Below, piece by piece: positions 3,643 to 4,840 of a stretch of DNA of 64,000 nt; within the stretch, counting starts at the first letter, position 1, and each line of letters begins with the position of its first letter. Made by a program: the position numbers and the translations under genes. The DNA lies in IMG/VR virus record IMGVR_UViG_3300013104_000001, positions 186,001 to 250,000 of that record; one strand, 5' to 3'. Origin of the DNA: a virus. The notes under the pieces are model-generated. The model did no database searches. It worked only from the letters and a program-made list of their open reading frames with translations, and was not told the DNA's origin.

Positions 3643-4302
3643 ATGTCTACCGAATTATCAATCACTCGTGCGCTGGCGACTATCAAGTCACTGAACGTGC
3701 GTATTAAGAACCTGACCGTTAAACAAGTCGTGACACTGCCAACGGCAGGTACCGGTCGTGATTTGACCATTATCAATAACCCAGATGTCACTGCTGATCG
3801 CGCAGAAGAGATGATCAAGTCTAACTGGCAGGCGCTGCAGGACATCATTGAGGCACGTGACGCTATCCGTGCTGCGGTAATCCAGGCCAATGCTACCACC
3901 ATCGTTAAGTTGGGTGGTAAAGAATACACCATCGTTCAACTGCTGGATAAGAAAGCCGGTCTGAACGATCAGAAAGAGCTGGTTAAAGTTCTGAAGAAGA
4001 ACCAGGCCAACACCAACTCTGTGTACAAGCAGCAGGATGAGATCTATCAGCGCCATCTGGGCAATGTTCGCTCAGAAGCTCTCTCTGGTAATAAGAAGCA
4101 GGATGATGAATCACTGCGTCCGTATACCGCGCCAATTGAGATGCGTATGAAGCCTGGGATCATTGATCCACTGAAAGCATCAGATCTCATCGACGCACTC
4201 GAAACAGAAATCTCTGACTTCGAACTGAACGTCGATTACGCGTTGTCTGAAGCTAACGCGATCACTAAGATCACGGTAGAGCTTGGCAACGTAAAGCTCT
4301 AA
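3643..4302 (+). CDS. Unknown helical protein, 219 aa
   Basis: AAAAGGAATA gives a strong ribosome site. The product is mainly helical with probable coiled coil across residues 5-60 and 100-140 (for example KKAGLNDQKELVKVLKKNQ). The C-terminus (ALSEANAITKITVEL) is strand-like. The layout recalls the DIP1984/septicolysin-type small helical proteins, but the match is only in general pattern. It is the last gene before the permuted tRNA region, and its high-frequency codons suggest good expression. Confidence 0.8.
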   Translation: MSTELSITRALATIKSLNVRIKNLTVKQVVTLPTAGTGRDLTIINNPDVTADRAEEMIKSNWQALQDIIEARDAIRAAVIQANATTIVKLGGKEYTIVQLLDKKAGLNDQKELVKVLKKNQANTNSVYKQQDEIYQRHLGNVRSEALSGNKKQDDESLRPYTAPIEMRMKPGIIDPLKASDLIDALETEISDFELNVDYALSEANAITKITVELGNVKL

Positions 4303-4365
4303 TGGTATAACCCCGAATAAAAAATCTTGTCTTCGTTTGACGAAAGATCAAACACCGCCTTCTGA

Positions 4366-4394
4366 TGGCCAGATGGAAGTAAAATAACTGGCCA
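4366..4394 (+). repeat. Perfect 7-bp hairpin before the tRNA 3' half
   Basis: TGGCCAG (4366-4372) pairs with CTGGCCA (4388-4394). It ends three bases before TTTAACA, which would enter the anticodon loop of the permuted tRNA. A second hairpin, CACCAA/TTGGTG (4473-4496), lies just after the tRNA 5' half, so the two open ends of the permuted tRNA are each capped by a hairpin. Confidence 0.5.
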
Positions 4395-4397
4395 ACC

Positions 4398-4472
4398 TTT
4401 AACATCTGTGTGTCGCAGGTTCGATTCCTGTTAGCCTGAAAAGGCTATAGCTCAGTTGGTAGAGCAACAGAA
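4398..4472 (+). tRNA. Circularly permuted tRNA gene (3' half upstream of 5' half)
   Basis: Read in the order 4441-4471 then 4405-4440, the sequence gives an almost textbook class I tRNA. The acceptor is AAGGCTA/TAGCCTG (6 of 7 pairs), then T8 A9, D stem GCTC/GAGC with loop AGTTGGTA, A26 and anticodon stem ACAGA/TCTGT (5 of 5). The variable loop is GTGTC, the T stem GCAGG/CCTGT and the T loop TTCGATT. In the DNA the 3' half (4405-4438) comes first and is joined by only AA to the 5' half (4441-4471), so the break lies in the anticodon loop. No other 5' or 3' partner half exists nearby. No CCA is encoded. TTTAACA before the 3' half would supply most of the loop, but base 37 would then be C, so I do not assign an anticodon. 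The sequence facts are direct; function is inference. Confidence 0.68.
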
Positions 4473-4840
4473 CACCAAACAATGCTGATCTTGGTGATCA
4501 TAGAGCGAGTGCCATAGGCTCCTCAAAACTATGGGCTAAAGCTTAACGTTGTAACGTGTAAAGATTAAAGGTATAAAGCTTTAAAGTTATAAACTTCTAA
4601 AGATGTAGTGTCCGGTAGCCCTGTGTGGCACGGACTATAAAGTTTAAACCTTTAAGCAAATCCCGGTCAAACGGTAATGTGGGTTGTGGTCGCCACGATC
4701 GCCGCCGGGCTGTCTTGCGGAGACAAGATTTTCCCTTTTAGTAGTAAACCTGACGGATGACTCGTATATCCTCCGGCCCCGTCTAAGGTAAAGCGAGTGT
4801 CATACGACGCTAGCGAGGAGCTTGTATCAAGGTACACTCC
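4473..4840 (+). other. Non-coding tail after the permuted tRNA
   Basis: This gap has no convincing gene. It holds a CACCAA/TTGGTG hairpin (4473-4496), CCATAG/CTATGG, a TCCG/CGGA hairpin around 4605-4635 and CTTG/CAAG followed by ATTTT near 4713-4730. An AT-rich stretch (4560-4600) carries repeated TAAAG words. I looked for group I intron core elements and found only partial resemblances. It could be the remainder of the precursor of the permuted tRNA. Confidence 0.35.

Follow-up and report, generated by a model that had tools for sequence, protein, structure and literature searches.

A probable Ro60-less, YrlA-type tRNA mimic with a circularly permuted fold in jumbo phages

The window analysed here comprises 64,000 nucleotides, bases 186001-250000 of a 287,406-base virus record. 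In a non-coding stretch 3' of the gene for a conserved 219-aa protein lies a short tRNA-like module whose parts run, 5' to 3', from T arm to capped acceptor to D arm, with an anticodon-type stem as the closing helix. The features of the locus, those of the module being read from the sequence, are as follows.

3643-4302, plus strand: gene for the conserved 219-aa protein, upstream of the module (phrog_1491, 'tail fiber protein'; T5.085 homologue)
4332-4344, plus strand: conserved upstream hairpin TTCGT-TTG-ACGAA, one pair changed on both sides
4359-4394, plus strand: H-type pseudoknot with stems S1 (4359-4363/4375-4379) and S2 (4366-4372/4388-4394)
4405-4471, plus strand: YrlA-type tRNA-like module, circularly permuted (RF02553, our own covariance model, covariation)
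4405-4409, plus strand: 3' strand of the anticodon stem, TCTGT, pairing with 4467-4471
4410-4414, plus strand: variable loop GTGTC
4415-4431, plus strand: T arm GCAGG-TTCGATT-CCTGT, two pairs changed on both sides among relatives
4432-4447, plus strand: acceptor hairpin TAGCCT-GAAA-AGGCTA, stem replaced in relatives
4432-4437, plus strand: acceptor 3' strand TAGCCT
4438-4441, plus strand: GAAA tetraloop
4442-4447, plus strand: acceptor 5' strand AGGCTA
4448-4449, plus strand: T8 and A9
4450-4465, plus strand: D arm GCTC-AGTTGGTA-GAGC, stem invariant in 6/6 phages
between 4465, the end of the D arm, and 4467, plus strand: A26
4467-4471, plus strand: 5' strand of the anticodon stem, ACAGA

An earlier sequence-only reading had placed the 3' half of a tRNA upstream of its 5' half, and this order can be read directly at 4405-4471. 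Its count of five out of five anticodon-stem pairs and its correct T8 are likewise borne out, by TCTGT with ACAGA and by the residue at 4448, respectively. Six of the seven acceptor pairs that it examined form a perfect 6-bp hairpin (6/6), while the seventh position is the A/G of the GNRA cap; similarly, the two bases thought to join the halves are actually the middle of the GAAA tetraloop that seals the acceptor stem. The open ends had been described as each capped by a hairpin, of which the upstream one resolves into a covarying hairpin and the H-type pseudoknot. The module also carries the tRNA elbow residues G18G19, U8 and C48, and its fold is the minimum-energy structure of its stretch (z -2.46).

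Against the Rfam YrlA model (RF02553, 'Y RNA-like') the segment 4407-4471 scores 43.7 bits, at an E of 2e-8 for the window stretch and 2.2e-9 over the 287-kb genome, and the match spans model positions 23-87 of 114, which correspond to the tRNA-like module alone. This score misses the Rfam gathering score of 69 bits, and default settings overlook the module. Our own covariance model, R1, gives the module as its sole match in the phage genome (91.5 bits). As a discriminator this model fails, because tandem tRNA genes reach up to 69 bits with it (68.9 bits for L117), and RF02553 also responds in 7 of 14 control genomes. Since tandem-tRNA junctions score as well, a YrlA model score is in itself no proof of Y RNA ancestry, and a local origin of the module by tandem tRNA duplication is possible. 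ARAGORN finds no tRNA in the 64,000-nt window and no further T-loop or D-arm motif occurs within about 1 kb of the module, so the halves are not parts of tandem tRNAs with their remaining halves present. On the Rfam YrlA E value, the fold z score and the covariation among six phages, the module is more than chance.

The closest named relatives at the locus are Erwinia jumbo phages (Agricanvirus: Ea35-70, AH06 and others), which are about 73% identical. The element is found at the same position, after the same gene, in AH06, Ea35-70, SNUABM_48 (hereafter SNUABM48), Salmonella phage SA002 and a metagenome contig. Covariation was counted over six sequences for the tRNA-like module, the upstream hairpin and the first pseudoknot stem (S1). 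Across these jumbo phages 97.8% of cells are paired and 11 pairs (22 cells) carry two-sided changes, a level of covariation reached by 0 of 500 shuffles; slid controls gave at most four two-sided pairs. The anticodon stem of SA002, for example, is the compensatory ACTTT/AAAGT, and the upstream hairpin reads TTCGC/GCGGG in SNUABM48 and SA002. Furthermore, the sequence of the acceptor stem has been replaced repeatedly while its pairing was retained (CGAGGC/GCCACG, CGGG/CCCG, TAGCCC/GGGCTA and TGTACGGG/CCCGTTCA), which indicates that the halves evolve together; they covary, and independent drift is not seen. Judged by these compensatory changes across six phages, the tRNA-like fold is under selection in jumbo phages.

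The pseudoknot helices are readable in relatives including the T5-like phage My1, and the pseudoknot is found in T5-like and Vequintavirinae phages that have no module (in My1 by script, in the others by eye). As such it is a separate element, and the module was probably a later addition to this older pseudoknot. In those same groups a conserved non-coding region, corresponding to 4359-4394 and about 4530-4740, also lies 3' of the T5.085 homologue, in the order H-type pseudoknot, TAAAG-rich repeats and a CAAATCCY..GGTCAA..CTG hairpin region; the gene for the T5.085 homologue occurs in 624 phage records. A hammerhead ribozyme near the locus was considered and none is present in the window. Weak Hammerhead_3 matches were noted at L005 7490-7542 and L004 9581-9633 (30.5 and 28.4 bits; cut-off 48.5), and in both SA002 and SNUABM48 such matches are equally far from the element, about 3.3 kb downstream.

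Y RNAs bind Ro60 through a basal stem formed by the 5' and 3' ends of the RNA. Neither part of this arrangement is found here. No basal helix is common to the six phages, the best flank helices being about as long as those of shuffled flanks (mean 6.8), and the window phage, AH06, Ea35-70, SNUABM48 and SA002 have neither a TROVE gene nor DUF2828; a phage Ro60 profile built from six proteins, which recovers true cases at E 1e-135 and below, gives no match in any of them. As both the basal stem and the Ro60 gene were looked for and not found, the module is not classed as a full Y RNA. The RNA ligase RtcB is encoded by the window phage and its Erwinia kin, while SA002 has none.

The tRNA-like domain of YrlA is nevertheless close to the module in design. 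Its structure superposes on tRNA in a circularly permuted manner (PMC11472068, PDB 6CU1), and YrlA (RF02553) shares with the module the order of T arm, closed acceptor arm and D arm as well as the elbow residues. Unlike YrlA, the module lacks the basal stem that binds Ro60, its phage encodes no Ro60, it scores under the gathering cut-off and it is linked to an upstream pseudoknot. The literature reports Y RNAs in mycobacteriophages and perhaps one in a Listeria phage (PMC12282133); some jumbo phages are reported to encode TROVE proteins (PMC7824862).

To place the fold more widely, viral and bacterial genomes were scanned for a pattern of T loop, short spacer and D arm, which gave two kinds of loci: tandem tRNAs, and complementary acceptor strands under a cap, mostly GAAA. 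With capped status scored by a home-made rule and a Ro60-like gene counted on the same few-kilobase locus, such a gene lies nearby among the viral matches listed in 54 of 77 capped against 12 of 99 uncapped loci (p about 1e-15), and among the cellular matches listed in 53 of 74 against 2 of 12 (p 5e-4). TROVE is encoded in 15 of the 22 viral records with the capped fold among the matches listed, and several capped-fold loci match YrlA at 32-47 bits. Because capped loci go with a Ro60-like gene, the capped permuted tRNA fold appears to be mainly the Y RNA fold, including many cases with an anticodon-like hairpin. The Y RNA-like loci of TROVE/DUF2828 phages (Enterococcus Schiekvirus L252, jumbo phage L182) have the same capped permuted fold as the module and score 58-62 bits with R1, but they possess Ro60-like genes and frequently show an anticodon-like hairpin and paired flanks, all three of which the module lacks. 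A reading of the pattern loci as permuted group I intron-exon arrangements was rejected, as no group I intron reached the gathering score at the 13 loci scanned; in L181 one intron lies about 500 bases downstream of a Y-like element.

Several other loci are worth recording. L182, a 280-kb jumbo phage record, holds several YrlA-like matches together with Ro60 and RtcB in one genome. Y RNA-like loci in L141, L151, L153, L161, L181 and L203 bear complete anticodon hairpins (Thr UGU, Glu UUC, Arg UCU, Leu GAG, Ile UAU), several of them in TROVE-encoding phages. On the minus strand of L108 there are seven copies of CTTATTTC, and L026 has the repeated element at 1750 and 2813; several copies of this L108/L026 repeat, RUAGAGCYNAUGCUUAUUUCU, stand just 5' of permuted tRNA-like 3' halves, one of which, in L026, has a Lys UUU anticodon hairpin. 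Neither record encodes TROVE or DUF2828, and these elements are candidates for real permuted tRNAs or for a new Y-like group. In addition, the annotated pseudo-tRNAs tRNA-Pseudo-5 and -4 of phage KVP40 (L254 916-1162), which encodes a DUF2828 protein, are apparently normal-order tRNAs with anticodon inserts of about 40-60 nt that share CTGAYAAG..TTCATNCTGCA.

The locus most probably encodes a non-coding, Ro60-less tRNA mimic of the YrlA type and not a tRNA gene, to which we assign a probability of roughly 0.8. The fold class is already known; the variant without Ro60 is unusual. The predicted RNA would fold in cis into an elbow and acceptor arm like those of tRNA, with a GNRA loop sealing the acceptor, and because the acceptor is closed in this way no aminoacylation would be expected and splicing would be unneeded. 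In such a molecule the effector half of a Y RNA would persist minus the Ro60-binding half, and it may work independently of any phage Ro60, its tRNA-like shape giving elbow-recognising proteins of host or phage a surface to bind. Most plausibly it would serve during infection as a decoy or tether, protecting tRNAs or diverting the enzymes that bind them, beside the RtcB ligase; a function of this kind is a tentative proposal at a little under even odds. Among proteins that recognise the tRNA elbow, PNPase, TruB and DusA are known to be engaged by YrlA, whose tRNA-like domain has been described with its partners and modification enzymes (PMC8394870), and YrlA has been proposed to be able to competitively inhibit an anticodon nuclease (PMC7790460). 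A more specific version, in which a Ro60-independent decoy acts in trans to shield tRNAs from defence nucleases that cleave them or to sequester tRNA-binding enzymes of the host in concert with RtcB repair, is doubtful, as is the accompanying idea that jumbo phages kept just the tRNA-like half of a Y RNA.

The alternative that survives best, though it is unlikely, is that the module works in cis within a longer phage RNA, the 3' UTR of the 219-aa gene, where it could serve stability or processing, for instance as a landmark for RNase P or an exonuclease. Its position in a conserved non-coding stretch directly after the pseudoknot would suit such a role, as would the fact that no promoter or terminator consensus near the module rises above shuffles, but the conserved tRNA elbow residues exceed the needs of a stability hairpin.

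Slightly less likely still is a true Y RNA that uses the Rsr/Ro60 of the host through a binding site too diverged to be recognised. SA002 infects Salmonella, where an rsr-yrlBA-rtcBA operon has been described (PMC7790460), and the upstream hairpin bears GACGAAAG, which loosely resembles Y RNA strands. The flanks of the six phages, however, share no basal helix, and a Ro60 motif in the upstream hairpin was rejected, as it is not conserved (GCGGG in two relatives) and the element also exists in T5-like phages without the module.

Very improbable is a relic without function, left behind when a tRNA was duplicated in tandem and formed from the 3' half of copy one and the 5' half of copy two. Such a deletion would yield complementary acceptor strands automatically, and tRNA genes do lie nearby in relatives, yet pairing has been kept through the rewriting of the acceptor in several lineages, and the share of paired cells over the counted structure is as high as given above. 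Chance or tandem tRNA remnants were likewise rejected on acceptor complementarity, covariation and the lack of neighbouring tRNA halves.

Least credible is a functional permuted tRNA gene, as the sequence-only reading had proposed. Its precursor would have to be cut at both anticodon-side ends and ligated by the phage's RtcB, and would lose the GAAA cap through RNase P and 3' trimming. The permuted fold itself stands; a gene whose product must be cut and rejoined is not supported. A permuted tRNA needs an anticodon loop once its ends are joined. The locus has no anticodon loop: the bases adjoining the stem in the six phages are TTTAACA, TTTAATA, TTATACA, TTATACA, GGTTAAA and AGTTAAA, and since rejoining them yields no conserved anticodon, U33 or purine 37, the module is not a functional permuted tRNA. 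Moreover, the tetraloop, which closes the acceptor in the primary transcript, would be the entire intervening sequence, and the flanks of the six phages share no BHB-like helix between the outer ends that could bring a splice junction together. An encoded CCA is absent from five of the six phages, SA002 alone having a possible G73-CCA inside the cap, which may be coincidence. The full set of elbow residues and the intact anticodon stem would fit a tRNA gene, and RtcB, invoked in the sequence-only reading, is indeed encoded by the window phage, but SA002 keeps the element without this enzyme. On the anticodon and junction evidence a real permuted tRNA was rejected. The tRNA-like domain of tmRNA lacks a D stem. 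The module resembles permuted two-piece tmRNA in its permuted tRNA-like domain, but it has a full D stem and no tmRNA match occurs in the window. Known permuted tRNA genes, from red and green algae and archaea, also have the 3' half before the 5' half and mature via junction cleavage and a circular intermediate (PMC3978253), but in these genes the intervening sequence can be removed, the junctions are of BHB type and the tRNAs produced bear an anticodon, none of which is seen for the module.

These results urge caution with 'permuted tRNA' patterns in phages, which are often Y RNAs, a class missed here by ARAGORN and by default Rfam cut-offs. Culturable phages of Erwinia and Salmonella would allow the Ro60-less tRNA mimic to be put to the test. 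The module would separate in nature the two halves of a Y RNA and, if a selected mimic without Ro60 is confirmed, the tRNA-like half would have a job of its own.
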